A DNA stretch of 64,000 bases from Fulvia fulva. Its lineage: Eukaryota; Ascomycota; Dothideomycetes; Mycosphaerellales; Mycosphaerellaceae. Location of the stretch: NCBI RefSeq assembly GCF_020509005.1, contig NC_063019.1:2232001-2296000 (forward strand), in the 5' to 3' direction. The notes below the pieces were generated by a model. That model was given only the letters and a program-made list of their open reading frames with translations. It was not told the origin of the DNA and made no database searches. Shown here one piece after another: positions 1 through 64,000 of the stretch; positions within the stretch are counted from its first letter, which is position 1, and the number at the start of each line of letters is the position of its first letter. Position numbers and translations under genes: made by a program.

Positions 1-225
1 TACGTAGAAAGAAGAGGGACTCGCTCCCGACACGAGTACACGCTCGTCGGATAGTTTTTATACCCGTTTTACTAGTAGTCCTCTATTCGCCGCGGCTTCG
101 CCTACGTTACGCGCCCGTCGCGCCTACGACGCTCTAGCGTGAGAATACTTAGCTCTCTCGTAGCTAGACGAGAGGTTCGTAGCCGACACTACGTATAGGT
201 GATTCTCGTCGTCGACCTATAGTAA
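1..225 (-). repeat. RIP-mutated copy of a 5'-terminal module
   Basis: The block matches 61095-61309 almost base for base apart from CA/TG to TA changes, and both copies stop at the same point (gtcgacct). At 61309 that point is the 5' end of a minus-strand retro-insertion with a target-site duplication. By inference this is the 5' end of a second insertion of the same kind, whose body lies left of the window. It abuts the 3' tail of the LINE that follows. Confidence 0.75.
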
Positions 226-13224: not shown

Positions 13225-13563
13225 TTGTATAAGTTTTGGTAGCGGGATCCTAGTGCTCTGGTAGCTGGAGAGCTATCGTACCAGTTGGAGCACAGCTATT
13301 AGTAAGCTGGTACAAGTTGGCGACTCGGCTGGGCTTCATGAGGAGGATGTAATATCGCTTTGAAGTCAATCCGATTTATTTCATATCGTGTTCCAGAAGC
13401 CACATGTCCACACGTCCACACGTCCACATGCAACATGGCGTGGCTTATCACGCGCTAGTGAAACTCTAATGACGCAACTTTGACGACTTCCATCTATCTT
13501 CATACCTCACCTCCTTCGTCTGGTTTATGATAACATCAACATTCACGCAAGCAGATCAACAGT

Positions 13564-13887
13564 ATGCTCCTATCAAAAGCTGTACGATTATATCGCCCGA
13601 GCGCCCGAGCGTCCTTGCCATTTTCCAGAGGCTTGGCAACTTCGAAAGACACAACATCCACTTTAGCATCAAAGGACGATCAAGACCTAGCAAAGAAGGC
13701 ACAAGATGCAGCAGAGTCTCCGAAGACCACACAATCTCACAAGACTATTGCTGAGCAGGATCGAGAGCTGATGGAGAAGCTCGCTGGCCATTCGGATGAA
13801 GGCGGCGCTGCAGGAGTAGAGTACGAGGATGGCAAGCCTGTGGCGCAGAAGCGGAGTGTTAAGAACAATATGTTCAGGTTGATATAA
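13564..13887 (+). CDS. Small mitochondrial-type conserved protein
   Basis: This is an intron-free frame of 107 residues. The first ~25 residues (MLLSKAVRLYRPSARASL) are Arg/Ser/Leu-rich without acidic residues, as in a mitochondrial presequence, followed by FSRGLATS, a plausible cleavage region. The middle is Lys/Asp/Ala/Ser-rich and probably disordered. The C-terminus (DRELMEKLAGHSDEGGAAG, then VEYEDGKPVAQKRSVKNNMFRLI read in two parts) looks like a conserved acidic helix and tail of small fungal proteins whose function I cannot name. The start is the first ATG of the frame. Upstream at about 13396-13430 lies a short direct repeat of cacacgtc that could belong to its promoter. Confidence 0.65.
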   Translation: MLLSKAVRLYRPSARASLPFSRGLATSKDTTSTLASKDDQDLAKKAQDAAESPKTTQSHKTIAEQDRELMEKLAGHSDEGGAAGVEYEDGKPVAQKRSVKNNMFRLI

Positions 13888-14546
13888 GACGATTTTGATA
13901 TGGCTAGAATGCTTGAGAAGAATGTTCTGGTACCATGAAGATGTCCCCGGCATGTCAAGTTTGCACAGCACGCCACCGACTACGACCAAACCGGGGGCGG
14001 TTGATGATTGATGCATAATGCGCACATTCAGGAAGAGACCTTCGTACAGATCTGCTCTTCTCTGAGATGTGTGATAGGAGGTCACATGACAAAGTGCATC
14101 TTTGGAGTTGCTGGCACGCTACATTACCTGTCGAAGCAGAACAGGCGTCCAGTCACTCGGCCGCTAGCAGATGTTGGCAGGCAAACAGATTCTGTCCAGC
14201 TGTTTGGGTCATTATGGACGGTGCTATGGACGAGCCATATGGTCTGTAGCGTTGACACGCTTCTCTGCAGGTCATGACCATAGCAGGCTCAGCACTGGGC
14301 AGCCGATATCTATATTCGCATGCACAGCTGGCGTATGAAGTGGCAGCAGCGCAGGTCGCTAGCAGACGCAGACGGCTGATGATATATTCTGGCTACAAGT
14401 TTCACGTCTTCCATCTTCTACTTTCACAACTACCTTTTCACTACTGATCATCTGAGCAAGGACCTCATCGACACCCGAAGCTCGCCAGTCCCTCTCAATC
14501 CCGCAGAGCCTCTCGCAAAGCAGCAGTTATCATAGTGCCTGTTGGT
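13888..14546. other. Intergenic, no gene recognised
   Basis: This lies between the mitochondrial-type gene and the zincin gene. Short frames such as 14008-14277 lack motifs and intron support. The last 150 bp are probably promoter and 5' leader of the zincin gene (pyrimidine-rich stretch near 14400-14440). Confidence 0.45.
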
Positions 14547-15901
14547 ATGGTCTTCCTTACGCTTGCACTCCCGTCCGCCGTCCTGGCTGTCAAGGCGCCA
14601 GATTCTAAGAAAGGCATGACGTTCGAGATCGAGAAGGTGTTCGAAGTTGATTTCTCTACCGACGCGCAAGGTGGCTGCAAGTCATATAAAGAGCTGCTGA
14701 CGAACTCTTACTACGATGCGATCGTTGCTCTAACTGGCGCCCTCAACGCGATCGAATCTGTCTCGCAAGTGACCAAGAAGTCTAAGGATCATGATCCCAT
14801 TGCGAAGAAAGAATGGCTCAGGGTGAGACAGACCTATGAAAAGGTCTTCGGCGTCGACCCGTGGACCCCTGCCGGTGGTCTGACGAAGGACGTCAGTCCT
14901 ATCAGGAGTACGTTCCGTGACGGCCCGTTGTCGTCGCTGCAAATGCTTATTAGCCTCCAGAGACTTACGATGAGTATCTCGCCAGCCTCCAGACTCCAGA
15001 GAAAGACAGCGAGAAAGAGCCCCCGAAGTTCACCCTACGCTGCGAAGACGATTGGCTAGAGTGGCTAGAGCCTACAGATCCTGATCCAAGGGAGGCCGGC
15101 AAACCGGACGCAAAGAAGTTTACCCTCGAGAAACGTGAGTCCACCAGACCATTCTCTCGCACCGTAGCCATTACTGAACTCGCCCGTAGCTCGTGAAGGC
15201 CAGAAAGCATTCCCCAAAGGCGCTTTCCAGGGCACAAATCTAGAGCCATCACGCAGCCTAATGATCCGCAAAGAATGGGTCACACTCAAGAACAAAAAGA
15301 AGCCTATCTGCGGACATGATTACGCAGGTCTCGGACCGACCGGCGCCATGGTCGATCCGCCTACCGGTCTCATAGTCTTTTGCAAGACACCGCTCGTTAA
15401 CAAGGGTGTCGTAGCTACGCTCTCCGACCTCACGTCCCAAATCAAGGTCGGTGCGGCCATTGATCTCGCCCGCTTTGCCGGGAACCCAATTTGGCTACAT
15501 GAGTTCGGCCACCTCCTCAAAAACCGTAAGTCTGTCCACCGAGCGTTAGCGAAGACCCCCTTCGCGCCGCATCCACTGACTAACATTATGCCCTAGTCCG
15601 AGATCAAAGAGCCCTCGACAAGGACGGCATCAAGATCAAACATCCACTGGGAGGGTACGAGAATGTTTATCACTGGGAGATGACGGTGAATCTTGCCAAG
15701 TGTAGGGTTGACGATGTGCCAGAAAATCCGGAGTGCTACAGGATGTTTGCTGTGGCGATGTATTGGAATGAGTGGTTCTGGGCCACGGGAAAGGCGAAGA
15801 AGGAACCTGAGGCGGAGGGTGGGATGGCAGGGCCGTCAAGGATGAAGCGGGGCAGTAGGATGCTGAGGGATTTGGTTGAGCCGGGCGTTATAGAGCATTG
15901 A
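14547..15901 (+). CDS. Secreted zincin-like metalloprotease-family protein (four exons)
   Basis: Exons 14547-14907, 14961-15134, 15190-15525 and 15597-15901 give 391 residues. All three introns are phase 1, of 53, 55 and 71 bp. Residues 1-17 (MVFLTLALPSAVLAVKA) form a signal peptide, so the protein is probably secreted. The zinc-protease motif HEFGH lies at residues 282-286. It is followed by a region (NVYHWE, then NPECYRMFAVA) that recalls the Tyr- and Asn-containing tail of aspzincins (M35/lysine-specific metalloendopeptidase-like). I infer that fold and cannot place the third zinc ligand with certainty. The N-terminal half (VDFSTDA.GGCKS, then WLRVRQTYEKVFG) has no domain I know but is shared with the downstream paralog. 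The start is the ATG at 14547, because it begins the hydrophobic leader. The role could be digestion of external protein or an effector-like function. Confidence 0.8.
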
Positions 15902-16723
15902 ATGTTTCGATTGCGTGCCTGGTGTGAGCCGGGTGGGTGAGACTGCCTGGACGAGCGGAATCCGTGGTTCGATGGGGGCTGGAACTTTTGCTTGATATTG
16001 CTTTTGAGAGACATTGGGGATGATATCGACCTGACTATGTCAAGGATGTCGACCCGAACCAAGGGCAACAAAGTGTGCACATTCTTCGACTCAGCTGCCA
16101 CGAGATTCCTAGCGAAGTGTTAAACGCGCGGTCTGCACTGCTACTTCTGCATGCCTAGGGCGATCCGAAGCATGCGTCTTGACTGTAGCGGAGTGAACTT
16201 TGGTCATCGTTGGAGAGTTAGCGCAGAGTGACCAGTCGCTCGCGGAGATCACGAAGCGAAGTCGCCGAAGGATATTTATCAACATGCTGCCATGCCAAGC
16301 TGGGCGATGGAGGTCTGCCACCTCACTAATCAATGTGCCAGCAGACCTATTTGATCGTTTCGCGGTCAGCGAGAGGGAGCAGGACGCTTGAATCAGCGGA
16401 CTGCCACGATGAGGCCCTTAGGCCAACGAAAATTTGTGCTTACCACCGCTCTCAGCACTACAACGCCGCCACAAGACTGCCAGCAGTGTCCTCCAGCACA
16501 AAGAACATCATCAGCACTAGGTCCCCATGTACGCTGCTAGATTCAGGCGGCAAGATCATGTGTCGGACCTTTCGTGGACACCGGCGTATATCGTGCCTCA
16601 TGTTGCACGCAGAGTACTTTACTCTCCGTGCCTCAACTAGAGACCAAAGATCTGAATCTTACTTCTCAGACCAGAGTGTACCAAGCACTGGCCAGTATCG
16701 ATACTGCGCTATCCTCACCCACG
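15902..16723. other. Intergenic, no gene recognised
   Basis: This is 0.8 kb between the zincin gene and its truncated paralog. Open frames such as the start of 16333-16911 overlap the paralog in another frame and show no domain. The last part is presumably the promoter of the paralog. Confidence 0.45.
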
Positions 16724-17393
16724 ATGAGGCCTCGTACTGCTGCTGGACTGGTGGTGGGACTAGTAGCTCAAGTCCTAGCGACTGCAAAGCTCCCGCCCGC
16801 CAACGAGGGACAGACCTTCGCCTTCGACACCGTGTTCGGTGTCGACTTCTCCACCGATGCAAACGGCGGCTGCAAGTCCCACAAAGACAAACTGCAGACA
16901 TCCCATGTTGAAGCAATATCGACTCTGACAGCCGCTAAAGGCTCGATAGACTGGTTGTCCCAGCACAAGAAAGCACCTTCATCAAGCAACAAGGAGCTGT
17001 ACAACAATTGGCTTCGAGTCCGACAGACTTACCAGAAAGTGCTTGGTACTGATCCTTGGACTGCAGCAGGCGGTCTAGCTCAGGAGGTGAATGCCGTTAG
17101 ACGTACATTGTCTCGCGAAGGCATCTCAAAGTGCAGGCTGATGAAATGCAGAAACTTTCGAGAAGTACCTGAGCCGGCTGCAAGTACCAGAGAAGACGAC
17201 TACACCGAAATACCACATCCGCTGCCGGGACGACTGGATCAAGTTCCTCAAACCCACAGACCCAGACCCACGAGAAGCTGGCAAGCCAGACGCCAAACAA
17301 TACACTCTCGCAAAGCGCATGATTAGCAAAGTGAACCATTTCCTGAAGCTACGTTCGAACGTTAGTCGTACCGAAGGGAGCTTGCGACCGTAG
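16724..17393 (+). CDS. Truncated paralog of the zincin-like protein
   Basis: Exons 16724-17102 and 17152-17393, with one phase-1 intron of 49 bp, give 206 residues. A signal-like leader (MRPRTAAGLVVGLVAQVLAT) is followed by FGVDFSTDANGGCKSHKD and WLRVRQTYQKVLGTDPWTAA, close to the same parts of the upstream gene. Exon 2 matches its exon 2 (CRDDWIKFLKPTDPDPREAG). The match ends exactly where the upstream gene has its second splice donor. Here the donor gtgagt is absent and the frame runs 25 more codons of unrelated sequence to TAG at 17391. The HExxH half is therefore missing, so it cannot be a protease. It may be a secreted non-catalytic protein or a decaying duplicate. Confidence 0.68.
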
Positions 17394-22300: not shown

Positions 22301-24310
22301 TCCTTCGGGGTATTAAGGGCAATTACGTTACTCGCTATCAAGTCGAGTACTTCGTTAGCTATAGAGTACGGCTAGACCTCGAGGCTAGCGGTTATATATA
22401 TAGGTTGTATATCTAGATACTACCTACGTAGAGGGAGGTAATATTGCCCCCGCCTTCTTCGTCTACGTAGTACACTACCTCCTAGTCGGATTCTAGTATG
22501 TCCTTGCTAATATAGAAGCATATACGGGGTCTGCCGTCGCCTCGTAGGCATGTCGTATAGCCTAGTAACTTATAGGTCGTTAGTCTCTTATAGTACGGGT
22601 TAATCTATAGCTCCTAGATTACTAGGACGTAGTAGACTACGGGTCCGCCTCGTGTAGGAAATGGTTCTAGACTATATCCTTGCTATAGTTGACGTTATAC
22701 TAGATAATACTAAGCGTGTCGAGGCTAGTTATCGGTATCGACAATTATTTCCTCTATAGCGTCCTATGTCCTACTACCTTATACGTCCTAGTCTACGCCT
22801 ATCGGCTATGTACTAAAGGGGAGCCGGGCCTAGTTAGACTCCCTCGCCGTAGCTAGTAGGGCACGTAGCCTCCCGTACGCCCTAGGTTACGTATCCTTTA
22901 TATCGTTCTCGGCCCTAGGGCGCTTATACCCGACCGCCGCTAACTAGTTCCGGTGTAGGCTAGCCTTACGGTCGCCGTAGAATCTTAGGGCGACGGTTCT
23001 GTTCGTGATTGCCTTGTTTTTCGCTAGTTTCCGCTATAGGCATTCCGCGCTATACGATAGGTAGTACCCCGGACAGTTCGCGTACGGTCTCGTAGCCGAT
23101 ATACAGTCCCTAGATATATAGTCTGTTAAACAGGTACGAGTTGCGCAGCAGTGGAAGACGGCGGATCACACCAAAGACGAAGAAGGACCCAATGGGATAG
23201 CGTGTATCTACATACAGTATCGCCGGTGTTGGTATAGGTGTTTCAGGAGGGACAGCTGTACTCAGGACTTGACTAGCAAGCCCTGATTACTAATCCCCCT
23301 AAGCACTCAATGTTGACCCTATGACCTGCATATTCTCAACATAGTCTCCTATATAGTTCGAGTAGGCCTACTTGTTTATACACGTATAGGTTTGGTGTCT
23401 ATACTGTTAGCATTTAAAGCATTAGAGGACACGAAAGAGTAAGGAGTGCTTTTCTACTATCTTAAGGCTATATTGCTATATTAGGCCTTGTTCTATCGCT
23501 AGATCCGCCGCTTTCGCGTCTTATAGCTATACTATTAGCGCCGAGGCCTTCTTACCTTCTAGCCATTTCCTATAGAGCCAAGTCGCCTTCTAGATTAGAG
23601 AGTTAAGAGTGACCGGGTTGTCCTCTTAGAGAGCCCGTAGGTCACCTTAGTTAGTTAGGTCGAACTCCTTAGGCATGTCGTAGACTAGGATCGTGAATTG
23701 CTTCGTTAAGACCTTCGCTAATACCGTAACCTTAGATGTCTACTATAGCTATGCCTCTAGGTACCTCCTAGTAGTAGTAGAGCTAGTATAGATCTATAGA
23801 GTACCGTTAGACTATTAGTTCACTACGACCAACCCTAGTTAGTTAATTCGTTAGGCGAGCTCCTTGTTCGATAGCTTCGTAACTTCGGCCTAGTCTTCCT
23901 TTACTACAATGCGGATCGTGACTATATCGTACGTTAGGCGGGGGCCTAGTACCGATGCCGCGACCGATACCTAGCTATAGGGGTGTTAATTCCGGGTGGC
24001 CTTGCTAATCGCCTAGGACGTCGTCCTTATTTCTTATTGCCCTCTATAATACGACAGTATAAGCGCCGTACGTAGCTAAGTGATCATTACCTATAGAGAC
24101 CGGTATAGGAGCTGATCGTTAGTTTCTATACTTTTTGCGTCCTCTATAAGTTGCTACTAGTTGTCTTAGGGGAGCTTCGCCTATAGAGCCGTAGGCGCCG
24201 TCCGTACCGTAGCCTAGGCTACTATTACCTAGGAGCTACCTAATGTAGCTAGGCACCTCCGCGGCGTTTAGAGCTAAAGAAACAGGGTGAAGAAAACTTC
24301 AAGCTGTCCA
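19371..24310 (-). mobile_element. RIP-degraded Tad-like LINE2 copy
   Basis: The 3' tail (atag)n and the block gaaaacccttcccgcccccg match 59022-59140. The RT region lies near 20600-21500 and the endonuclease near 22000-22740. ORF1 with its cysteine-rich part lies near 22750-24290, and the 5' end is near 24310, where homology to 57515-57620 stops. TAG stops abound. A 218-bp solo LTR sits in ORF1 at 23124-23341. Confidence 0.85.
23124..23341 (-). mobile_element. Solo LTR, copia type, with 5-bp target duplication
   Basis: It runs from TGTTAAACAGG to TTCTCAACA (plus strand) and is flanked by tagtc at 23119-23123 and 23342-23346. Removing it rejoins LINE2 ORF1 as in the uninterrupted copy at 58560-58590. 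The end matches the LTR ends at 8542 and 36182. It is rich in CA and TG, so it looks unmutated although the LINE around it is heavily RIP-mutated. Confidence 0.88.
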
Positions 24311-28255: not shown

Positions 28256-30879
28256 AAAGACTCGGTATCTAGTCTACCGGGAAGTTGGATATAGAGCGGT
28301 CTTAAGACAGTTAGTCCTTTGTCCTTAGCCGTAGCGGGTTCGGTCTCTACGTAGGGAGCGGGGATTAGCTAGGTCGGTTCTTCTATAGAGGACTCGGCTA
28401 CTTTAGTAGTAGAAAGTTAGGGTATTATACTACCCGAGGATCGTAAGATTGCTATCGGGGCATCCGCTAGTTACTGAACTAGTAGTAGTCGCGAGACCGC
28501 CGGTAGTCGACCGACTAGCCTTCGTTTAGGTACCCTACTAGGTTAGTTTATAAAGGAGACACCTAAGTCTAGATCTCCCCCCTTTTCGTTTTCGAACTAA
28601 TCTACTTAGCTATACTGCCTAATAGCTCGTATATCTAGCTCCTAGAACAACTATTACTTAGTCGATTGACTATATCTAATAAAAATAGCTTCCTTACCCC
28701 GGTTTATTAACTTATTCTATCGTAGCTCTTTTAGATATAATTTTGGTTCTACGTAAACTACTGCCCTATAACCCTATACTCTTAGGTAATCTACCGTCGG
28801 TACTTTGCTAGTAAATACTTCTTCCGGCAAAAGTTAGACGCCGTTAAGTAACGGTCCGTTCGGTAGTAGGTTATATATAACCGCCTATACCTCTAGCGCT
28901 TTAGGCTAGAATTCTACCGGCATCCCCGATTCCTCGAGTATTACGCGGATCGCGTTCTCCGATACCTAGATTGACCTTTCTACTACTCCGTTTTGTATAG
29001 AGTAATAAGTATCCGTCGTATCGTACTAAATACCCGATTCTTTCTCCTATTCTTTAGAACTATTAGTAGCTTAGGTATATTGTTACTCTATACTACTCTT
29101 ACGTAGTATTTGGATACTTTCTCTATAGTAAGCCGCTATTATCGTAGTACTTACGGTACGTCGGATTTGTTCTTAAGCGGGAATACCTACTTCTTTCTAA
29201 AGAAGTTATCTACGATCTCTAGCTAGTATTTAAAACCTAGCCTAGATGTCGCATTTTCGAAGGGTCCGTAGATATCGATAGATATAAGCGTAAGTCTTTC
29301 GTTCTTTCGTTCTACGATAGCGCCTTTAAACTTCTATATTTTCGCGATAGAGTATACCTTATAGTTATACTCGTCCGGGATAGGAATCGGGTCCTTCTTA
29401 TTACTTACCCTATAGACGTTCCGGAGTAATCCTTTACCTAGGTATACGATCCTTCTATACTAAAGCTCCTACTAATCCTCGGTAGTTACCGCGGCTAGAG
29501 CTTCCTCGTATAGCATCTCCGGGGGTCTATTATCTATCTAGTTTAGGGAGTCGGATATTAAAGATACTACCGGTACCCCCCCTCGTAGTACTGTTCGTAC
29601 GATAGGCTTTCCGCTATTATACTTAAGTATAAAGTTTAGAGGTTCGATATCGAATTACTTACTAAACTACCTCTATAAAACTAGATTAACTCCGAGGTTA
29701 GGAACAAATAAGACTTTCTCTAGCGTAATTTGTTTCCCCGTTAGGCCTCCTATAGTTACTATTCCTTTATAGAATATATCTAGGTACCCCCTACCAACTT
29801 TATTTACTTTCCTTCTCGCTAGTTTCCTAAGCGATCTAAATAGAGACTTATTATCAGTTATATATAAGGAGGTATAGGAGTCTAGTAACTATTCGGAGGT
29901 AGGAAACTTACCTTTTACTTCGGTAGTAGAATAGACGACTTCGTCGTCGTATATTTCCTCGGTATCGCTTTCTCGTAAGGTATAGGCTCGTATCGCCTTT
30001 ACCTTTGTCTTATTATCGGATTGGCTTCTCCTATCCTTCTACTATTTCCTAGACTTCTTAAGGGCGTTTTAGGCCTTCTCTAGATCCCGGACTAGCTCTT
30101 CGTAGGACTTCTTCTCCGGTTACTTCTAGGTATTCTTCTTTTTAATAAACTCCTTTACGGAATCTAGTTCCGGGCACGATATAACGAGGTAGTTACTATC
30201 GTAGATAAAGTAGCCGCTCTTGCCCCCTTGCCTCTAGGAGTATAGAGCGGTCTCGCTCTTACTCTCTTAGATCCGTAATTCGTAGGATTTAAGCAAGGTT
30301 ATAGCGGATTCTTAGCCTAGTATTAGCTAGGCTAGGATAGTGTCCCTAGTACTAGCGTAGACGTCCGGGAGGCTACTTAGTAGGTGCTTAAACCTCCGGA
30401 TAGGGTCCTTATAGTAGGTCTCTTTACTATCTGTTTTGGTAATCTATATAGATTAGTTACCTAGATATATCTACCCTTATCTAATTGTCTAATCGTCGGG
30501 TAGCTTAAACAATACTAGCTATTTTATAAGCGCTACTACGTATACCTTATAGACCTTACTATACTTCTTCTATAGAAGTTTCTAGATCTCTTTCGTATCT
30601 CGTATATCTAAGATTTCTTAGTTGTTCTCCTTAGACAAATATACTAAGATAGTATATCTCGCTATACCGTTCGCCTTCGAAGTGATCTTAGGCGTAACAG
30701 ATTCTAGGAGATTAGCTAACGAGTCGTTAATAACTAAGAATACCTCCCGGCTTTCGAGATAGTCTCGTAGTATAACAAACTAGCGCTTCTAGTTCTTACG
30801 AGTAAGGGTAGGGCCGACCTTCTAGGGGCCCTCGTAACTCGTTAAGTCTTCTATAGCAAAGGTAGCCTTAGATATATAG
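28256..30879 (-). pseudogene. Copia gag-protease-integrase, RIP-mutated
   Basis: On the minus strand from about 30870: a Gag frame beginning near SKATFAIEDLTSYEG, a degenerate zinc-knuckle part near 30220 (GGKSGYFIYDSNYLVISC), and a protease-like block (ITDNKSLFRSL) near 29850. The integrase follows, with GPFENATSRLGFKY near 29250 and QNGVVERS near 28990. The RT and RNase H expected downstream are absent: the sequence meets the Helitron near 28255. TAG stops throughout. The element's start lies at 36029-36181, beyond a LINE1 inserted in it. Confidence 0.82.
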
Positions 30880-31072
30880 ATAGATAGATATTTCATTAAG
30901 CTGTTGTAGTGCCCTTTGGCCTATGCAGCTATGCTATCTTGTTTTTGTATATATAGAGGGGAAACCGTGTTGGTGAAAACCCCTCCTCCTTCCCGCCTGT
31001 CTTTTCCTCCTCGTTGTCGTCTTAAATTTCCCTTGTTAGGGGTACGCTAGTGTCATGGGCCTGCCCTGATGA

Positions 31073-34000
31073 CTACCCTATCTGCAACCCCCCTCGCTTC
31101 CGCCTCTTGTCTATCCACTCCTCCGTCTCGCTCGCGAGGCTAAACTGCTGGAGGTATCCCTGCTGTAGTATCCACCGAGAGATTCGGCGAATGTTGCCTT
31201 TGTCCCTAATAATTGACTTGTAGTCTCTCCTTCCCGCTTGGTGCCTCCAATTTCCCCTGCCTCTCGCCCACTGCGGGCATCGTAGTAGCATATGTTCTGG
31301 GTTTTGCGATGGGTAGCCACACTGGCAGGCTGGGCTATAGATGTCTAGTGCGCGTCTTCTGAACAGGTAGGCCCTTAATCCAATGTGTTCGGACCTGATT
31401 TGGATCGCTATGCTTGCTTCGGCCCTTGTCAGGTCCCTATATAGCTGGTAATTGTGTCTCTGGAAGGCTCGGAGCGCTATCGGGCCTGTTGTCTTAGGGG
31501 GCTTCCTTTTCCAGTCCTGCTCCCATAGGCAGCTCGCTATCTGTTCCGCTAGGTTTTGGGTCTTAGCCTTGCTCCCGCCGGCCTGGCGAGTCCTACGCTC
31601 CTCCTCCTTTCGTGCTAGCCATTCGGTGCTTGTCTGTACGGCCGTAAAGGTCGTAAGGTCATCCTCTTTTTTGCTTGTCCTATATCCTGCCCCTCTCCGG
31701 TAGCGGCTTTCTATCTTATTCTTTGCCTCCTGGATCGTGGTTTGTGCTAGGTAACCTGTCGTCTTTGCCGCGTATTGAATTCTCATTCCCCGGATGTACT
31801 GGCCGATTGGTGGTATTCCTGTCTCCATTTCTACCGTGCTTGTTGACGTTGTCTTGTATGCGCCTAGTACCCTACGTAGGTTGCCTGCCTGTGTCCTGTT
31901 TAGGGGTTGCTCTATCCGTTTCGGGATCGGCTTGCCTGCGCCTCCTGTTCCCCAAATCTGTGCCCCGTACAACATAGCTGGTCTGACGATCGCCTTATAC
32001 ATTACTCTTGCCTTGTCGAATGTTGCTCCCTATGTAGATGCCGTAAGCCTCTTTATCGAGGCTTCATTGACTTGCGCTCGACTCTGGGCTTTCTTAATCT
32101 GTACATTCTAGCTTAGCTTCGGGTCGAGCCAGATCCCTAGTACTCGTAGCTCCGCTGATGGCTTGGTCTCGTAGCCTTGGATTCTTACCGCCGCCTTCAT
32201 ATTATGGTGTGTTCTCGCTTTACTGAAGTGTATAAGTTGGTACTTTTCAGGGGCGAACCGGGCACCATGCTTCTTTGCCCACTCCTCGCATTTCTTGTGC
32301 CTATCTTCAAGGAGGCGACAGTTCTCTTCTGTCGAGTCTGACCAGGCTAGGATGTTTGTATCGTCTACGAACCCCGATGCTGAGGTTTGCGGAGAGGTGA
32401 GTAGGGGGATTAGATCCGACATTAATATTAGAAACAGGATAGGGGAGAGAGTAGATCCCTGAGGTATTCCAGTCTCTGCCTTCACCGGGTCGGACGTGTA
32501 CCTTCCTAGGACTAGGTATGTCGTCCGTTCCTGGAGAAAGGAGAAGACGAACGACGTTGCCCACTGGGGGATGCCTTTCTGCTGTAGGATATGTATTAGC
32601 CTTTGGTGTGAGACGTTGTCGAAGGCCCCTGCGATGTCGAGGGATAGTAAGGACGCCGCTCGGTTCCTGCCGTAGTGCCAGAGGGTCTGGATTTGCTCCG
32701 TAATTAGCTCCATTGCTGTTAGTGTCGATCGCTGGCTTCTTCCCCCCATCTGTGTTGCTGGGAGTACGTGGTTGTCCTCGGCAAGCTGCGTAAGTCTCTG
32801 GGCTACTATCTTTTCTAGGACCTTCCCTATCGTATTTAGAAGTGCTATTGGTCTGTACGACTTGGGCTGAGTATAGTCTTCCTTCTGTGGCTTGCGTAGC
32901 ACTACTGTCATAGACTCTCTGTACGGCTTCGGGTGATACCCTAGCCGTAGGCACGCGGTAAATAGGTTTGCAAGGCTCGGCGCGATCTCTTCTCTACACT
33001 CTTTTAGCAGTACGTTTGGTATCCTGTCTGGGCCTGGGGCTTTTCGTCCCTTTAGCTTACTTATGACTCCTGTTACTGTGTTAGGGCTAACCGCCCAATC
33101 CATGTCCAGGGGTTCCGGGTATGTGCTCGGGTCGATGTCCGTAAGGTCTGCCTCTACTTGCGTCGAAAAGAAATGGTCGGCTAACGCTTTTGCCTTGCCC
33201 CGGGGCGTAGCCTGGGCAATCCCTTCGCGGTCGACGATTGGGGGGAAGTGAGGGGCTTGTTGCTCTTCAGGTAGTCGTGCCTATTTAGCAAGTCTCCACA
33301 TCTGTTCCGGGTTTTCTGTAACGAGCCCGATCGTCGCTCTCCAGTCCTGCAGCTTATCGCGTCTTATCTGTGCCTTCTTCTCTTGTGTCGCGTGGCAGTA
33401 TTGCTCCCACGTCTCTTGGGTGTGCTCCTTCGTCCACTGTCGCCTTGCCCTTCTAGCCTCCCTTACCTTCGTAGAGCATTCAGGGGTCCAGAAGGCCTTC
33501 TGCTGCGTTGAGGGCCGGAGTAACGGCGTGTATTGTTCCGCTGCTTGCCATATGACCGAGGTAATCTGTTCCGCTGCTTGATCTAGCTGAGCTGTCGTCT
33601 CGAGTTCTCTATGCTGTGGTAGGTTCGCTATTAGGAAGCCTCTTATGTCGTCCCAGCGTGCCTTCTTCCAGTTACGGCGTGGTTCGTTTGCTGGCTCCTC
33701 TATCGCCTTCACCCCTAGCGTCGTTTGGATAGGGATATGGTCTGAGGAGGCTTCTAGCGCGTAGTTCGGTCGGCATTGGACTAGTCTCTCTTCAAGTTCT
33801 CGTGATAGAAAGCATAGGTCGATCGTGCTTGTACTAGTACGGGCCTTCCACGTCTCTGTTCCCTTTGGTGTTACTAAGGCCATTCCGTAGCGTGCGGTTA
33901 TGTCCAGTAGCTTCCCCCCTAGAAATGCGTGCGGGGGAGTGAATTCGAGTCCCCACTGTGGGTGGTAGAGGTTGAAGTCGCCGAGGAGTACTTGCTTCGT

Positions 34001-34426
34001 GTCTTGGCTTAGGGTCCGCTCTAGGTGGGCGAGGGTTCCTAGTTCCCTACTCGTCCGACCCCGCGGTGGCGGGTTGTAAACGTTATGGATCTGGATAGGG
34101 CCTTGTGTCGTGTCGATCTGGATTGATGTTATGTCTCCTAGGTTGCCCTGCTGCGGTAGTATAACCTTCCACGACTCAAGGTCTATAGTCTTGCTTACGT
34201 ATATACATGTCCTCGGGATGACGCCTCGTTGGCCCGCGATTACGGTGTGGTATCTCCGGTCATTACAAGTGGCTGGGAGTCCTACGTAGGGGTTGATCCA
34301 TGGTTCCTGTACCGCAATAACGTGGTGCCGTAGCGGGTCTAGCTCTTGTAGAAAGTGGCGCTGGACCTTGTCCCTACTTTTGTTTACGTTGTACTGTACG
34401 ATAGTGATGTCGTCGTATAGTATCAT
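31073..34426 (-). pseudogene. LINE1 ORF2 endonuclease-reverse transcriptase, three TAGs
   Basis: 1117 codons remain in one frame, with TAG at 33281-33283, at 32108-32110 and near 32030. The N-terminal APE-type endonuclease has its catalytic blocks (QYNVNKS, VQEPWI, LLGDFNLYHPQW, STIDLCF, SSDHIPI). The RT follows with KAPGPDRIPN, SYRPIALLNTIGK, LSLDIAGAFDNV and the catalytic FVDDTN near 32360. The C-terminal part holds IQIRSEHIGLRAYL and the knuckle CQCGYPSQNPEHMLLRC. I see no RNase H motif. Each TAG stands where the A or B copies have Trp. The ORF could be restored in evolution by few changes, but this copy is non-functional as it stands. Confidence 0.9.
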
Positions 34427-35772
34427 TCGTTATCCGTGAGGTCCATTTCCGTGCTGACCTGCTGTGTCTCCTGAGCCTGTATCTCGCTGTCCGGCTGGCC
34501 CTGGGGCCGCTGGGGCGCCCCAAAGATTCGCATTTGGCCTAGTTCGTTGGCTGCCCGGTTAAGGTGTCGAGGCCGACCGGGAGGTGGATGCGTTTGCGGT
34601 TGGGTTCCCTTGTTCGTCTCTTCTGCCCTCTTCCTTTTGCTCGGCTCGAAGCCCTTGTACACGGTAGGTCCCTCCTGTTGTCGTTGGGGGTACCTAGCTG
34701 GTGTAGAGATCCTTGCTTGTCTCGCTCGTTCTTGTGCTGCTATTCTAGCCGGGCATTGGCTTGAATACGCTGGGTGCCTTCTGCCGCAGCATGCGCACCT
34801 GCTCTCCTTTTTTGGGCATTCCCTTCCCTGGTGTGGGCCTGCGCAGTGAGGACACCTTGGGGTCTTCTCCCCGCATTTTGAGGCTATGTGACCGTACTGT
34901 TGGCATTGGAAGCATTGTAGTACCCTGTGGCTGCTCTGATGGATCTCCGTGTCCATTCTCTCGCAGTTCCAGAATAGCCCATTGTCTAATATCTGGTTAG
35001 CTTGTTCCGCTGTCTCTACCCAAATAATAAGCGATGAATGCGTCTTTTCTCGGTCTACTGTCTTGTGCAGCCATGCCGCCTTCGTTAGTCGTACTCCTGG
35101 GGAGGTGTTCTGGTTCTGTACTTGGAGGTGGGGAAGGTCTTCGACCTTGAATGTCCTAGGGACCCCGTGGGCGATGACGGTATACTGTTGGTGGGAGACT
35201 CGTGCCGACTTCGCGACTTTAGTAGTCCACTCCTTATAGGTCTCCAGCTTTCGTCTATCAGACTCTTGTGCGGTAAAGAGTCTTACTACGCCTGTTGCTT
35301 CTACCCTCGCCCCAACTACCTCCTTTTGGCCGATTCTGTCGACAATCTCCTTGCTTGTTAGGGCTGCGATTTCTTGTTTCTCCGCCGGATCAGTAATGTA
35401 TAGGCGTACCGCCTTACTTTCCTTCGGAGGGGGTTGATTCTTGCCTGCTGCTACTGTTGCCTATGTAGTTGGTTTCTGGGCTGCCTTCTGTGTTACTTGT
35501 TGGATTGTCTTCGGGATTTGGTATGATAGCGCTTTTAGCGCTCCTAGTAGCTGTGCTATGGTGTTCTTATATGCCCGGGCTGGGTGTTCGTCATCCCCTA
35601 GTAAGTTCTCCGCCTCCGTATATAGGGTCGTCCACGCTATGTTGTTTGTCGTTGGCCTCTGCTTTCTGTATAGTGGGCCTTGGCTTGTGCCCTGGGTTTT
35701 TTCTTGGTTTGTTCCCCGGTTTGACTCTTGGTGCAGAATGTTCGCAAGGCTATGGCTCTCGTTGGTTGCCAT
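34423..35772 (-). pseudogene. LINE1 ORF1 (Gag-like, zinc knuckles), one TAG
   Basis: The frame is 449 codons from the ATG at 35772, with a single in-frame TAG at 35461-35463. The C-terminal half has three CCHC-type knuckles (CFQCQQYGHIASKC, CPHCAGPHQGREC, CACCGRRHPAYSSQC), typical of LINE ORF1 RNA-binding proteins, and a basic Pro/Gln-rich tail. Upstream is a region ending in ARVSHQQYTVIAHGVP, conserved in the A and B copies. Its TGA overlaps the ATG of ORF2 as ATGA. Confidence 0.88.
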
Positions 35773-36028
35773 CCTTCGCTGTTGTTCGGGGTCGCGCTTC
35801 CTAATTGGGCAGTTGTCCTCCGCAACTCCGCAATTCTAGGGTCTGCCTTCAGGGGAAGGGGACCTCGGTTTTGGGGTTTTTTTTTGTATCACAATTGCGC
35901 CGCCGCCAGCGCAGGCGGGTCGCTACTGCTTGAGTAGATTGCTCGTCTTGATAAGGGCTATCGATTGAATGGTCCTCGTCCTAGTACCCGAAAGAGTGCT
36001 CTACCGCTAGTATCCCTTAGATATATAG

Positions 36029-56523: not shown

Positions 56524-57514
56524 TCCTACGGCTAGTGATCTATAAGACGATAATATAGGGTTACCGTAAAATAAGCGTTATTTAGTAAGGCTACGAAAGA
56601 GAAGCGTAAAGCACGCGAGATATATAAGGAAGCGCCAAGGCGCTAGTACGCGGGGTAGAGCCGCGGCGCGACGTTACGGTAGTAGTGAACCGTAATAGTA
56701 CTCCCCCCTTTAGATCGCTATTCGTCCTCGGACGGCTCTATCTCTATAGTAGTATATCTACGAAAACTATATTATCCTCTAGTCTACCTTGTTTAGCTTA
56801 AGCATCCTCTAAACCCTTAATATCCTCCTTACTATCAATTACTATATCCGTCGGGCGGCTAAGCTAGTACGGCTATATAGAGGCTTAGGGTACGTTACGA
56901 TAAGATACTAACGGCGACTCCTTAGAGAAGCCCGTATAAGTTAAAGCTACAGTATAGCTACCTATAGAAGAGCTATAAAGCCTAGTACTACTAAATAGCG
57001 GTGCTTTTATAGTTACTAAGACGTATATAGCGACATCCTTATTCTAACACTTATTATAGAGACTTCTATCCGCTATTATCCTTATAGAAGTAGGTATACG
57101 CGGTTCTCTAGTAGCCCTAGCGTATCGTACTCGTATTAAGTCTTATCGAGCGGCGTAACGTCCTTACTTATAGCTTAGACGCCGTTACGGGCGTATTAGT
57201 TTACGGTATAACTACCGGTATAGACGTACTCGCGTTCTCCGTAGGCACCTAGCTAGACTTAGTATAAGATTGTAGTATACTAGTAACTCGGTCCTTATTA
57301 GGTACCTAGTCGTACGGCGGCTTAAAGTCGGCGGGTATAGACTTTAATAGAAAGTTATAGTAGAAGTCTATAATAGAGGCGGCTACTCCTACTAATACTT
57401 CTAGTAGCTCCTAGCTCGGCTCGCGGTATCCTTTCTACTTCACTAGGTACTTATACTCGTCTTACTTCGGTAGTAAGTATTTTAGTAGTCTATCGATCTC
57501 TGCGCCAAAACACG
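56524..57514 (-). mobile_element. 3' end of a chromodomain gypsy element
   Basis: On the minus strand near 57400-57510, the frame reads KYLLPKQDEYKYLVK then KGYREPS, the middle of a chromodomain with the usual Trp codons turned to TAG. A long Pro/Thr/Ser-rich tail and non-coding sequence follow, to a CG-rich part near 56640-56710 that may be its LTR. Only this end is present; LINE2 copies flank both sides. Confidence 0.6.
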
Positions 57515-57619
57515 ACACATTCGAAAGCTCTTATCAAGGCCATTCTAACGATATAAAAAGCAGGCCACTGCCCCTAGGACTAAGGGAGTTCTACCTTATT
57601 CAATCTGGACAGCTTGAAG

Positions 57620-58970
57620 CTCTCTTCACCCTATTTCTTCAGCTCCAAACGCCGCGGAGGTGCCTAGCTACATTAGGCAACTCCTAGGCAATAGTAGCCT
57701 AGGCTACGGTACTAACGGCGCCTACGGCCCTATAGGCGAAGCCCCCCTAAGACAACTAGTAGCAACTTATAGAGGACGCAAAAAGTATAGAAACTAACGA
57801 TCAGCTCCCTTACCGGTCTCTATAGGTAATGATCACTTAGCTACGTACGGCGCTTGTACTGTCGTATCACCGAGGGCAATAAGAAATGAGGACGACGTCC
57901 TAGGCGATTAGTAAGGCCACCCGGAATCAACACCCCTATAGCTAGGTATCGGTCGCGGTATCGATACTAGGCCCCCGCCTAACGTACGATGCAGTTACGA
58001 TCCGTATTATAGCAAAGGAAGACTAGGCCGAAGTTACGAAGCTATCGAACAAGGAGCTCGCCTAACGAATTAACCAACTAGGGGTAGTCGTAGTGAACTA
58101 ACAGTCCAACAGCACTCTATAGATCTATACTAGCTCTACTACTGCTAGGAGGCACCTAGAGGCATAGCTATAGTAGGCATCTAAGGTTGCGGCATTAGCG
58201 AAGGTCTTAACGAAACAATTTACGATCCTAGTCCACGATATGCCTAAGGAGTTTGACCTAACTAACTAGGGTCACCTACGCGCTCTCTAAGAGGACAACC
58301 CGGTCACTCTTAACTCTCTAATCCAGAAGGCGACTTGGCTCTATAGGAAATGGCTAGAAGGCAAGAAGGCCTCGGCGCTAATAGTATAGCTATAAGACGC
58401 GAAAGCGGCGGATCTAGCGATAGAACAAGGCCTAGTCTAGCAATATAGCCTCAAGATAGTAGAAAAGCACTCCTTATCCTTTCGTGTCCTCTAATGCTTC
58501 AAATACTAATAGTATAGACACTAAACCTACACGTACACAAACAAGTAGGCCTGCTCGAACTGTGTAGAAGACTATATATCTAGGGACTATACATCGACTA
58601 CGAGACGGTACGCGAACTGTCCGGGGCACCACCTATCGTATAGTGCGGAATGCCTATAGCGGAAACTAGCGAAAAACAAGGCAATTATAAACAGAACCGT
58701 CGCCCTAAGATTCTACGGCGACCGTAAGGCTAGCCTATACCGGAACTAACTAGCGGCGGTCGGGCACAAGCGCCCTAGGGCCGAGAACGATGTAAAGGAT
58801 ACGTAGCCTAGGGCGTACGGGAGGCCACGTGCTCTGCTAGCTGCGGCGAGGGAATCTAACTAGGCCCGGCTCCCCTTTAGTATATAGCCGATAGGCGTAG
58901 ACTAGGACGTATAGGGCAGTAGGACATAGGACGATATAGAGGAAATGATTGTCGATGCCGATGACTAGCC
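57620..58970 (+). pseudogene. LINE2 ORF1 (Gag-like)
   Basis: Broken by TAG stops. Near 58490-58650 it has a cysteine/histidine part (ACSNCVEDYISRDY, then CPGHHLSYSAEC) of zinc-knuckle type. The tail is Arg/Pro-rich, then acidic (EEMIVDADD). Its TAG at 58968 overlaps the ORF2 ATG at 58962, the same close ORF1-ORF2 coupling seen in the other LINEs. Confidence 0.7.
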
Positions 58971-59198
58971 TCGACACGCTTAGTATCATCTAGTATAACG
59001 TCAACTATAGCAAGGATATAGATAGATAGATAGATTTGTCATTCCCCTGTTCTAGGACCCTATCCGGCCTATGCAGGTATATATCTATTGTTATGTACAA
59101 AGGGAAACCCGAATAGGTGAAAACCCTTCCCGCCCCCGACTACTCCTTGTCTAGATTAGCTTTCCCTCTGAACGTACGTAGTCCATGTCACTACCCCG

Positions 59199-60218
59199 TT
59201 AGCCCCCGCTCCTAGCCGGTCTCGTCGCGCTGCGTCGTGTCCTCTCTTCCTGCACTGCTCCTACTAGGCGGTACTGTTCTAGCCAGCCCTTCTCTAGTAT
59301 CCAGTTCGTAATGCGCCGTAGGTCTTCAGCGTTGTTAAGAAGTGCCCCAATCGTCCGGTTCCTCGCCTTTGCCATCCACTCCCCCCTTCCTAGCGACCAC
59401 CTCGGACAGACGAGGAGTGCGTGCCGTACGTTCTGGGAGCGATAGCCGCAGGGGCAGCTAGTATTCGTGTATCCTGGAACCTTCCTCCATGATAGGTACC
59501 CCTGGAGGCCGATGTGTTCGCTTCGCAGTTGGGTTGCTATGCTACTCTGTGCCCTCGTAAGGCGGTAGTGGATGAGCTTCGGAGGGTGCTTGACCGCGGA
59601 TTTTGTAGCTGACCATTCCTTAGGTTGTCCCGCTGGCTGAGGGCGTCCACTATGCCCTACAACCTGGTTGTTCCACCTCTCTTTCCATAGTTGCTCTACA
59701 AACGATTTCTCACCTTCCCATTGTGTTGCTAGCTGTTCGTCCCTTGCCCGGTAGTTCGGCTCGTTTCCGGGTCGAATGCCCTTGTGCGCTGGTACTGATT
59801 CGCGGGCCCTTGCGACTGCACTGGCGATGACCTTCTGTACTGGGTACTGTGCCGACTTGCCTAAGTAGGAGGTCCGTAGTCCCTGGATGTATAGGTCGAT
59901 CGGCGGTATAGCGGTCTCGTGCTCAAGCATCCTCGTTGGTGTCGACTTATATGCCCCGGTGACCTTCCTTAGGCATTGGTTTTGGATCTTCGCTAGCGGC
60001 GCGACGAGTCCCTTCGATGGGCAGGCCCTCTCGCCTAAGGACCACACTTGGCTGCCATAGGTAAGGACTGGCCGTACAATAGCCGTATATAGAAGTCGTG
60101 ACTGCCGGAAGTCCGCCCCCCATGTGGACGCAGTGAGCCTCTGGCATGATGCCATATTCTGTTCAGCTTTCCGTAATATTGCCTGTACGTGCTTCCTCCA
60201 CCGTAGCGCCGGGTCCAC
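59199..60218 (-). CDS. LINE2 ORF2 C-terminal part, open
   Basis: 339 codons without a stop, from MDPALRWRKHVQ to the natural end. It covers the end of the RT and the C-terminal domain, with TAIVRPVLTYGSQVWS, the conserved LRSEHIGLQGYLSWRK, and the knuckle CPCGYRSQNVRHALLVC. It lacks endonuclease and RT catalytic residues, so on its own it cannot reverse-transcribe. Whether it is translated from the chimera is unknown. It shows what this domain looks like before RIP. Confidence 0.75.
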   Translation of the reverse strand: MDPALRWRKHVQAILRKAEQNMASCQRLTASTWGADFRQSRLLYTAIVRPVLTYGSQVWSLGERACPSKGLVAPLAKIQNQCLRKVTGAYKSTPTRMLEHETAIPPIDLYIQGLRTSYLGKSAQYPVQKVIASAVARARESVPAHKGIRPGNEPNYRARDEQLATQWEGEKSFVEQLWKERWNNQVVGHSGRPQPAGQPKEWSATKSAVKHPPKLIHYRLTRAQSSIATQLRSEHIGLQGYLSWRKVPGYTNTSCPCGYRSQNVRHALLVCPRWSLGRGEWMAKARNRTIGALLNNAEDLRRITNWILEKGWLEQYRLVGAVQEERTRRSATRPARSGG

Positions 60219-60225
60219 CCATAGT

Positions 60226-61094
60226 CCGAGGCGAGGAAGGAATCGTATTTAGCAAGCTAGCTACGAGATAAGGTGACAAGTCTTAACCGCGCTTTCCCAC
60301 TCATCTAGCACCACCGTGTAGCCTCGTTTCGAGAGGTTAGCCCGGAGCAAAAGCTTCCCTCTACGCCCTCCCTCCCTGTTTGCTCCTTAAGCCAATATCC
60401 ACCTCCATAGGCCTAAGCCCTTTAGTGCTCTCTATTGACCGACATGCGCATCCGTCCTCTCGGGCTGTACAGACAGTGTCAGCCGTCGCTGCCAGTGTAC
60501 ACCACGCCCCAGGTTTTGACGCCCTTCGCGTTACCGCAGCCTATCTCTAGAAAGCGGCCGTCCATGCCTCGCAGGTTTGCTCGGGGCACACACCACGCCG
60601 GGCAGCGTACTCCTTGCGTTTCCACCTACTAACCAATATGAAGTTCCTTATCACCCTGCCCTCGATCCTCCCCGATCACAGAACTAATCCACTTGCATTG
60701 TACGTCTTTTCCCCGTCCTAACAGCCGTCTTTTCCTTGCTCAGGCTATCGTCTTTTCCTCGTCGCAATCTACCATGTCAGACTAGGTGCGTTGTGTAGCG
60801 GGACAGGCAGTGCCTTAGGCAAAACCCTCGTTCCCATACCGGGTGTTCAACAGGCCCTTATAGGCTTCGTCGCGTGTCCACCTACCCACCGCATTGCCCG
60901 CTGGCAAACACCAGATTGTTTCGTAGTCCGCTCGACGCCGTTGCATAGTCCGCTCAGTTGTTGTTCTGTCGTCCGCTCGTCCAATGTTCGTCGCTCAGCC
61001 CGCTCGGTTTGCGGTCTCCGGAGGTGAAAATTCTGCACTCATACCAGAGGTGTCCTGTCGAGCGTATAGGCCACGGTTCCGCGCCCTTCTTACA
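60226..61094 (-). other. Non-LINE 5' body of the chimera
   Basis: Normal-composition DNA without a convincing frame on either strand. It contains three copies of cgtcttttcc at 60703, 60726 and 60749, and four copies of a g(t/c)ccgctc(g/a) motif at 60926, 60948, 60971 and 60998. The origin is unknown: a host transcript joined by template switching, or a separate small element. Confidence 0.55.
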
Positions 61095-61309
61095 CGTAGA
61101 AAGAAGAGGGACTCGCTCCCGACACGAGTACACGCTCGTCGGATGGTTTTCATACCCGTTTTGCTGGTAGTCCTCTGTTCGCCGCGGCTTCGCCTACGTT
61201 GCGCGCCCGCCGCGCCCACGACGCTCCAGCGTGAGAATACTTGGCTCTCTCGTAGCTAGACGAGAGGTTCGTAGCCGACACCACGTACAGGTGATTCTCG
61301 TCGTCGACC
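61095..61309 (-). repeat. 5'-terminal module of the chimera, unmutated copy
   Basis: 215 bp ending at the insertion edge. It is repeated, RIP-mutated, at 1-225, ending at the same base. On the minus strand it starts AGGTCGACGACGAG. Inverted ctcgtagctagacgag at 61253-61268 could fold as a hairpin. Confidence 0.8.
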
Positions 61310-61323
61310 TAGCAAGGATATAG

Positions 61324-64000
61324 TCTAGAACCATTTCCTACACGAGGCGGACCCGCGCGTCTACTACGTCCTTGCAATCTAGGAGCTATAGATTAACCCG
61401 CACTATAAGAGACTAACGACCTACAAGTTACTAGGCTATACGACATGCCTACGAGGCGACGGCAGACCCCGCACGTGCTTCTATGTCAGCAAGGACATAC
61501 TAGAATCCGACTAGGAGGTAGTGTACTACGTAGACGAAGAAGGCGGGGGCGATATTACCTCCCTCTACGTAGGTAGCACCTAGATACACAACCTATACAT
61601 ACAACCGCTAGCCTCGAGGTCTAGCCGCGACCTAGGGGTCTATAGACACCTAGACAGTGCGCTCAAGAGACAAGGGTGCCACATCGTAGTAGGAGACTTC
61701 AACATACACCACCCTTCCTAGGAAAGCCTTATGTAGCCGCACCCTATAGCCGACGAAGTACTCGACTTGATGGCGAGCAACGCAATTGCCCTCAATACCC
61801 CGAAGGACCTAGACACCTAGAAGAGAGGGGGACTCTAAGGCACGATCGACCTCTCCTAGATCTCAGATAGCCACTACTACACGGTAACCTACTATAGGAT
61901 CGAACATAAACTCGAGGCGTCGTCAGACTATATGCCAGTCAGGACCTCTGTTACGACACAGATACAACGTATACTAGCGAGAACCCCTAAGCTAAACTGG
62001 GGAAAGGCCTACTAGGCCAACATCTAGGCGTACCTCGATGACTCTAAGAGGCTAGTCCAGATCGCGTAGTAGCAATACAATAGTAAAGACGAGATAGACG
62101 AAGCAGTCTTGGGGTTGACAGACGAAATAAGAAAAGCGACCTCACTTCACGTTCCGCTTGCCTAACTAACGACATAGTCTAAACTATACTAGACGCCGGA
62201 GTGCACTGCGGTAGTAAGAGAAGCAAGGAGAGCCCGCCGGGTATAGACGAGCAGCTATAGCGAGGAGGCCTGGAACGTATATAGGGAGGCATGCCAACAG
62301 AAGAAAGCTATAATACGGAGGGAGAAAGCAGTCGGCTAGAGGGCTATAGTGGAAGAAATCGCCGGCAAGCTAGAGAGGATGTGGAAGCTAGCGAAATGGG
62401 CCCGATAGGACCCTACATAGGGCCCCTCCTTCTCTATCCTAGCGCTACAATCGCCTAGTGGCCCGGTTAGCGACCCCGAGGCTAAGGCGCGTCTACTGGC
62501 TAGCAAGTTCTTCCCACCCCTAGTCGAGGCTAATCTAAGCGACATAAACAGCTCTACTCCCCTAGCCCCTAGCATCGCGGTCTAATAGGAGGTGTCCGAG
62601 GGAGAAGTTACCGCTGTGCTAAGGAAGTTGCCGGCGAAGAAAGCCCCGGGGCCGGATAGGATCCTAAACGAGCTACTAAAGAAGTGTAGAGATCAACTAG
62701 CCCTAGCAGTTACAGCGATCTTTAACGCCTACCTACAGACCGGATACTACCCGATAGCTTTTAAACAATCGACGACAGTGGTCCTACGTAAGCCGCAGAA
62801 GGAAGACTATACGTAGGTGAAGTCGTACCGCCCAATTGCGCTCCTTAACACTCTTAGGAAGGCGCTTAAGAAGCTGGTTATAACGAGACTCTCCGAGGCG
62901 GTAGAGGAACACTCCCTACTCCCGGACACCTAGATAGGTGCGCGCCTATAGCGATCGACGCTATCCGCGATAGAACTTATCACCTCTTAGGTAAAGGCCA
63001 TCTGGTATAAGAATAGGGACAAGGTGGCTTCCTTACTTAGCCTAGACATATCGGGAGCCTTCGACTACGTGTCACACCCGCGGCTTCTCTACATCCTAAG
63101 GTCGAAAGGACTCCCTAAGTGGCTTGTCAACTTCGTACGGTCCTACCTCCAAAACCGCAGTACGTCGATCCTAGTCGGCTAGTACAGAAGCCCATTTCAA
63201 GCAGTCTACACTAGAATCCCGTAAGGCTTAACGCTAGCACCTATTCTGTTCCTCTTCTTTATAGCGACGCTGCTCCTAGCCCTAGAATCCTAGAACACCG
63301 CTACGAGCGGCTTCGTAGACGACACAAACATCCTAGCGTAGTCTTCCTCGACTAAGGAGAACTGTAGGCTACTAGAAGAGAAGCACAAGATCTGCGAGGA
63401 CTAGGCTAGGAGGCACGGGGCTCGGTTTGCCCCAGAAAAGTACAATCTGATACACTTTACGCGCCGGCCACGGTTCCATAATATACAAGCTTCTATCTAG
63501 ATATAGGGGCACACGACTAACCCGGCAACTCAGCTCAGGATCCTCGGACTATAGGTGGACCCGGCGCTACGGTAGAGGAAGCACGTATAGGCAATATTAC
63601 GGAAAGCTAAACAGAATATAGCATCATGCTAGAGGCTTACTGCGTCTATATAGGGGGCGGACTTCCGGCAGTCACGACTTCTATATACGGCTATTGTACG
63701 GCTAGTCCTTACCTATAGTAGCCAAGTGTGGTCCTTAGGCGAGAGGGCCTGCCTATCGAAGGGACTCGTCGCGCCGCTAGCGAAGATCCAAAACCAATGC
63801 CTAAGGAAGGTCACCGGGGTATATAAGTCGACACTAACGAGGATGCTTAAGTACGAGACCGCTATACCGCCGATCGACCTATACATCTAGGGACTACGGA
63901 CCTCCTACTTAGGCAAGTCGGCACAGTACCTAGTATAGAAGGTCATCGCCAGTACAGTCGCAAGGGCCCGCGAATTAGTACTAGCGCATAAGGGCATTCG
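61324..64000 (+). pseudogene. LINE2 ORF2 (endonuclease-RT), 3' part outside
   Basis: The first codons lie at 58962-59021. Endonuclease: VVGDFNIHHPS near 61690, GTIDLS, ASSDYMPV (His of SDH now Tyr). RT: KKAPGPDRILNELL at 62640, SYRPIALLNTLRK, LSLDISGAFDYV near 63045, FVDDTNILA near 63310. The thumb and first C-terminal part follow to the window end. TAG stops occur throughout; 62592-62816 is the longest open piece. Confidence 0.82.

Follow-up and report, generated by a model that had tools for sequence, protein, structure and literature searches.

The locus considered here raises the question of how one retroelement insertion can be a LINE in its 3' half and something else in its 5' half. It lies in a window of 64,000 nucleotides (C8:2232001-2296000) of a genome that was searched over 67,169,167 bases in 14 contigs; the element occupies positions 59022-61309 of the window (2288 bp, minus strand), and its (ATCT)n tail adjoins the left copy of a target-site duplication (TSD; Table 1). 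The analysis confirmed that a 1.1-kb noncoding module has been joined repeatedly, by one end, to the broken fronts of several LINE families, and that the element in the window is one case of this.

Table 1. Features of the window that bear on the chimeric element (positions are those of the window)
Feature	Position	Strand	Remarks
Left TSD copy	59008..59021		14-bp perfect direct repeat TAGCAAGGATATAG
Right TSD copy	61310..61323		perfect repeat TAGCAAGGATATAG
LINE 3' tail, (ATCT)n	59022..59037	-	tetranucleotide run 59018-59035 overlaps the TSD
5'-truncated LINE A (C-terminal end of ORF2, 3' UTR, tail)	59022..60231	-	from LINE A site 3790 (L018 coordinates)
Module, 1078-nt noncoding 5' part	60232..61309	-	fixed ends GGTCGACGACGAG...CCTTG (window copy: CCTCG)
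Fusion point	60231..60232	-	native LINE A across it: CAGGAT|CCTCGG
Host, older RIP-mutated LINE A split by the element	57492..64000	+	pieces 57492-59021 and 61310-64000
Second module copy, 5' end (locus L027)	2..217	-	remainder left of the window, enters LINE A at site 1618
Nearly complete LINE B, native 5' end, without module	30876..35957	-	used as reference

The preliminary description of this stretch had proposed a single insertion bracketed by a perfect 14-bp duplication, in which the 3' half alone belongs to a LINE (LINE2 there, LINE A here). The 14 bases, TAGCAAGGATATAG, are present once (22672-22685) in an uninterrupted LINE A copy of the same window and the flanks of the element are those of one interrupted LINE A copy; the repeat is therefore a real TSD. 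The LINE part is 99.6% identical to the LINE part of locus L018, which upholds the assignment of the 3' half, and comparison within the window agrees with the claim that the 5' half has no LINE homology. Two details had to be adjusted. The boundary between the module and the LINE is at 60231/60232, five bases off the formerly noted 60226, and the sequence at 1-225, described as a recurrence of a module at the end of the 5' half, does recur but is the 5' end of a RIP-mutated second copy of the whole 5' half (2-217).

The index (CA+TG)/(AC+GT), by which RIP was followed, is 0.81 in the module and 0.90 in the LINE part; the host LINE A gives 0.58-0.59 and the gene island 1.28. Over 61324-64000, comparison of the host LINE A with L018 shows 132 C>T/G>A changes and 4 of other types, and the module body of L027 differs from the L018 module by 84 C>T/G>A changes and 1 other substitution. 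The element itself has 11 differences over 2288 bp from its sister chimera L015, meaning that it is young and nearly free of RIP, in keeping with the recent activity that the preliminary description had suggested from the near absence of RIP. Window positions 9001-17000 and 61324-64000 also display a sharp RIP contrast, an unmutated gene island versus flanks in which the index is as low as about 0.1-0.3.

The first 20 bases of the module occur exactly 332 times in the genome and the 19 bases of its 3' end 266 times, with 0 occurrences of the reversed control patterns; among the LINE 3' ends, 533 unmutated ones belong to LINE A and 428 to LINE B, C and D together. The module is 1078 nucleotides long in 37 of the 38 contig C1 copies that have both exact ends. 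A protein-coding module was rejected, the longest sense ORF being 74 amino acids, and so was a known RNA family, as no Rfam family matched in 59000-61400 up to an E value of 5; a BLAST search with C collapsed to T gave many weak matches, which were taken as compositional noise. When 20 modules, those of the window and of 19 loci selected for resembling it, with L027 excluded, were aligned over 1079 columns, three shared and nine private variants were found, i.e., few haplotypes. By the exact 53-base core, 12 copies belong to haplotype 1 and 80 to haplotype 2; both core variants are of RIP type and are also found in RIP-mutated copies (e.g., L027 and L160), and the third variant, at position 99, is not RIP-like and is known from those copies alone for which the 5' half of the module was read.

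What the module is joined to was read at 164 junctions, of which 21 come from 20 loci, 1 from the window and 142 from shorter stretches, a sample in which contigs C1-C3 and little-mutated copies are over-represented, out of a genome total of 332 exact 5' ends; L102, where the module borders LINE B, is outside the 164 because its module end mismatched the search string. The module is left at the same base in 164/164 junctions, after ...CCTTG (CCTTA where RIP-mutated and CCTCG in the window). Five of the junctions go into a second module and the remaining 159 into a LINE (54 into LINE A, 62 into B, 16 into C and 27 into D), at 86 distinct sites when the entry points are placed on family coordinates. 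Both parts have the same (sense) orientation, and the 3' part is a 5'-truncated LINE with many truncation points. No bases are added in 151/159 LINE junctions, the LINE beginning with its exact native sequence if RIP-type differences are permitted; of the others, 4 differ by some other base from the best native copy, one (L165) has an unreliable native match and 3 have no native copy for comparison. On contig C1, 9/92 LINE A and 25/84 LINE B, C and D 3' ends are preceded on the same strand by an exact module end no more than 7.5 kb away. Conversely, a LINE 3' end lies downstream of 29/49 exact module 3' ends of this contig (upstream control, 2/49), and the other 20 all border LINE sequence when read; 17 exact module 5' ends of C1 are without a nearby exact 3' end, and the 7 that were read all border a LINE as well.

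Several copies joined to this LINE at different points, the outcome that the preliminary description had named as support for serial template switching, were found, 54 of the 159 LINE junctions being in LINE A itself. They bear directly on the idea that the chimera as a whole is a single fixed element spreading by itself. Such an element would account for the recurrent junctions, since by an earlier count of 139 junctions B2860 and B3328 were used 10 times each and the site of the window element 4 times, and for the tandem-like loci L052, L099 and L100; it does not account for 86 distinct LINE sites, and the site of the window element is used by 4 of the 164 junctions (the window, L015, L123 and L130). 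Moreover, copies that share a site need not share a module. Position 99 separates the window from L015 and L014 from L019, two pairs of copies at recurrent sites, and in both pairs every variant known to distinguish the haplotypes is different. LINE sites of haplotype 1 are also used by haplotype 2 in 7 of 11 cases. Among 89 loci, a site is shared by 12/924 pairs between haplotypes, close to the 56/2926 pairs within haplotype 2, where 0.74 pairs are expected by chance over RYC sites; permutation of the labels gives 16.3 between-haplotype pairs against the 12 seen (P 0.23). We therefore regard the fixed element as very improbable and as refuted as a general explanation, though it may hold for some recurrent junctions. 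Barring gene conversion that mixes haplotypes, the module sequences argue firmly for repeated fusion at the two hot spots named above, and repeated fusion is probable at five further sites. Neither codon phase (P 0.76) nor predicted single-strandedness (P 0.45) explains the hot spots in families A-C. The three tandem-like loci (C1:8826063, 8830730 and 8835401) are module-LINE C chimeras that follow one another on one strand at intervals of about 4.67 kb and have an identical junction, which looks like a tandem duplication.

A different possibility is that the module is the true 5' UTR of these LINEs and that the short copies arose by internal deletions. It draws on L018, L022 and L025, in which the module is ahead of two open ORFs (ORF2 of these LINEs has endonuclease and reverse transcriptase domains), and on L183 (LINE B) and L186 (LINE A), in which it is at the very front. 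However, the module is absent from 20/20 other native 5' ends that were read, 10 fronts of LINE A and 10 of LINE B. When a 346-base query from the LINE A front of L018 was used, one of the best 40 of 1072 candidates was L018 itself and the 39 others start at query base 8-37, which is the native LINE A end; of these 39, at least one (L186) has a module ahead. In addition, one and the same module is common to four LINE families and 86 entry sites. For families A and B, whose native ends were read, the module is thus refuted as a 5' UTR, an explanation that now seems scarcely credible, and the native 5' end of LINE A is different from the module, as the preliminary description had supposed. The five loci with a module at the front of a LINE (L018, L022, L025, L183 and L186) are taken as one extreme of the range of entry points.

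The entry points are not random with respect to sequence. At the 83 sites where another copy supplies the native LINE sequence across the junction, the motif R-Y|C is found in 71. The base at -1 is a pyrimidine in 83/83, that at -2 a purine in 75/83 (A 47, G 28), that at +1 is C in 76, T in 6 and A in 1, and at +2 there are 60 C and 1 G. An earlier count gave RY|C at 64/72 sites versus 6.3% of LINE positions (P 9e-68). Given a C at +1, R-Y is still present at 64/67 sites where 23.8% would be expected, and the motif is therefore not explained by the single base in common with the end of the module. Twelve of the 83 sites violate it, one of these (L165) on an unreliable native match. The top LINE D site, D3060 (L026, L089, L090, L093, L096, L101, L167 and L169), is a violator, with CTC|TCACTG in the native sequence and TTG|T in the fused copies, which implies that the module ends with TTG and that C at +1 is not required. 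A fixed 3' end of the module combined with many acceptors is also what one would expect if splicing or trans-splicing added the module to LINE RNAs as a leader exon. A spliced-leader-type exon was rejected, as the acceptor AG precedes the junction at 0/72 sites and the invariable pyrimidine at -1 is at odds with it; we give this explanation practically no weight.

The likeness to the MINE elements of Magnaporthe, pointed out in the preliminary description, holds both in anatomy and in the junction motif. According to the available text on MINE (WEIRD-MGL) of Magnaporthe grisea, the 5' part is a full-length copy of WEIRD, a noncoding RNA of 1113 nt, 33 chimeras with MGL or Mg-SINE were found, no solo copy of WEIRD was reported, for which incomplete sequencing was blamed, and a junction motif GCC|A/U was proposed (PMC2104539). 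Set beside this description, the module (1078 nt) is likewise a noncoding 5' part of about 1.1 kb, with no solo copy found, joined to a same-orientation 5'-truncated LINE with TSDs at many entry points, some of them reused; among the 'representative' sites of Table 3 of that paper, 15 of the 18 rows (10 of the 13 distinct ones) conform to R-Y-C and 17 of the 18 to R-Y-Y. The two systems differ in scale, presumably in their LINEs, in numbers (33 chimeras there, 164 junctions and four LINE families here) and in the presence here of module-module-LINE triples. The strict published form GCC|A/U is not kept at our 83 sites, A being more frequent than G at -2 and +2 being mostly C. Mammalian U6 snRNA/LINE-1 chimeras are also alike, in that a noncoding RNA of full length precedes a 5'-truncated LINE in sense orientation and TSDs are present, and either switching or ligation has been proposed for them in the portion of the literature consulted (PMC13174262); U6, however, is a known snRNA with known genes, whereas the module is 1.1 kb long, matches nothing in Rfam and has no solo copy that was found.

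In the tomato leaf-mould fungus Cladosporium fulvum, LINE Tad1 makes up 16.3% of the genome and RIP-affected sequence 39.2% (PMC9453070, available text). The four LINE families are presumably this annotated Tad1, for which the accessible accounts describe neither a shared 5' module nor chimeras (PMC9453070, PMC10823647), and within the open-licence literature we recognised fungal chimeras of such a kind in the Magnaporthe work alone. What is new relative to MINE is the scale, the four LINE families, the triples, the shared motif and a search of a chromosome-scale assembly in which no solo source was found. The recurrence of this architecture in a fungus from a different class, with hundreds of module copies and a matching motif, speaks for a general mechanism rather than an oddity of Magnaporthe.

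That the element is a chimeric retro-insertion as such we consider very likely. Our full explanation, for which a probability of about 0.8 seems appropriate, is that module RNA was joined to a 5'-truncated LINE A and that the product was inserted by target-primed reverse transcription. A full-length copy of the 1078-nt noncoding module RNA would be joined by its fixed 3' end to the truncated LINE, and the chimera would be inserted by the target-primed reverse transcription of the LINE. In the switching route, the LINE reverse transcriptase would copy LINE RNA from the 3' end, halt just past the C (rarely U) that follows R-Y, continue onto the 3' end of the module RNA and proceed to its 5' end; a second such jump would yield module-module-LINE. 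Insertion by target-primed reverse transcription is well supported: a TSD is present in 19/21 module copies with enough sequence (20 loci and the window) and starts with (C)TATA, and there is the tail. All four LINE families have the TSD start (C)TATA and the tail (ATCT)n, so that target and tail have CTAT in common. A plain 5'-truncated LINE with a TSD and without a module lies on the plus strand of L012 (tail near 3566), near the hot spot B2860. A matching TSD was not found in the two other copies of the 21, L013 and L016, and this, together with the 12/83 sites that break RY|C and with the lack of any solo gene among the copies covered, counts against the retro-insertion and switching reading.

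The preliminary description attributed the joining to template switching during target-primed reverse transcription. The priming part of this claim stands; as to switching, within the chimeric retro-insertion we lean slightly towards it, since a reverse transcriptase is present, double joining comes naturally and MINE has been read as switching. The alternative is that RNA ligation comes first: a module RNA ending with UUG would be ligated to a fragment of LINE RNA cleaved at R-Y|C, and the resulting chimera would be copied by the LINE machinery. The enzyme that joins the two would probably be the fungal tRNA ligase Trl1. The 151/159 junctions without added bases suit ligation and are a difficulty for switching, as template jumping by the R2 reverse transcriptase in vitro requires added bases in the work available to us in part (PMC8857657), and none are seen at the junctions here. 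The motif and the hot spots are at the LINE cut, as if made by a nuclease. In the same partial source, human LINE-1 chimeras obtained in mobility assays, U6/LINE-1 ones included, are traced to pre-ligated RNAs and not to switching (PMC8857657), and the accessible text of PMC13174262 names both routes. In addition, the rebuilt sequence UUG|C, with G at +2 in 1/83, is similar to the UG|C site of fission-yeast Ire1, which is biased against G at +2 (PMC3470409, as far as its available text goes). The LINE cut itself, on the other hand, is not an Ire1 motif, since the base at -1 is a pyrimidine at 83/83, and the codon-phase signal expected of co-translational cleavage is not seen. Ligation thus fits too, as a serious but less probable route than switching, and the number of junctions is large enough for the two to be tested against each other.

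Where the module comes from is the remaining part of the question. Of the 92 copies whose 53-base core is unmutated, none is a solo module: all 92 are fused, with their 3' ends covered, in a census that would miss a source gene whose core is mutated or holds an intron, or one that lies in an unassembled stretch; 89 of them were assigned to LINE sites and 3 (L156-L158) are joined to a second module. As the assembly is chromosome-scale, this brings the nature of WEIRD-like RNAs into question again. There are five module-module-LINE triples (L156-L160), in which the second module starts at 168, 168, 165, 297 and 371, respectively; the entries at 165, 168 and 297 match RY|C and that at 371 does not. 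Three of the triples, L156, L157 and L158, have in common A111G (unit 1) as well as A733G and T895C (both unit 2), variants that are absent from the single copies compared, and they enter LINEs at A122, B3884 and B2860. Shared variants at three LINE sites mean that the double module acted as one acceptor. The simplest source of it is a chimera whose transcript ended at the end of the module, and recombination between chimeras could also have produced double modules.

A bolder interpretation, drawn from sequence comparison and in our estimate rather unlikely, is that the module is a parasite of LINEs that has no gene of its own and lives only at LINE fronts. It would supply the promoter of the chimera, its RNA would be freed from chimeric transcripts at UUG|C by an Ire1-like RNase and would be attached to any LINE RNA or cDNA at its broken 5' end, rebuilding UUG|C, and it would thus enter retrotransposition at the 5' side as SINEs enter at the 3' side. 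This idea is suggested by the absence of solo modules (0/92), by the few haplotypes in the 20 aligned copies, by the double module that behaves as if released whole and by the G at +2 in 1/83. If the module does carry a promoter, the fusion would supply broken LINE copies with a new front end. Native LINE fronts have short variable leaders too, of which one of 23 bases is common to three LINE B copies (L081, L082 and L086) and one of 17 bases to two LINE A copies (L074 and L075). These short leaders may be smaller joins of the same kind, and three modules (L018, L186 and L177) are joined upstream of such extra leader bases.
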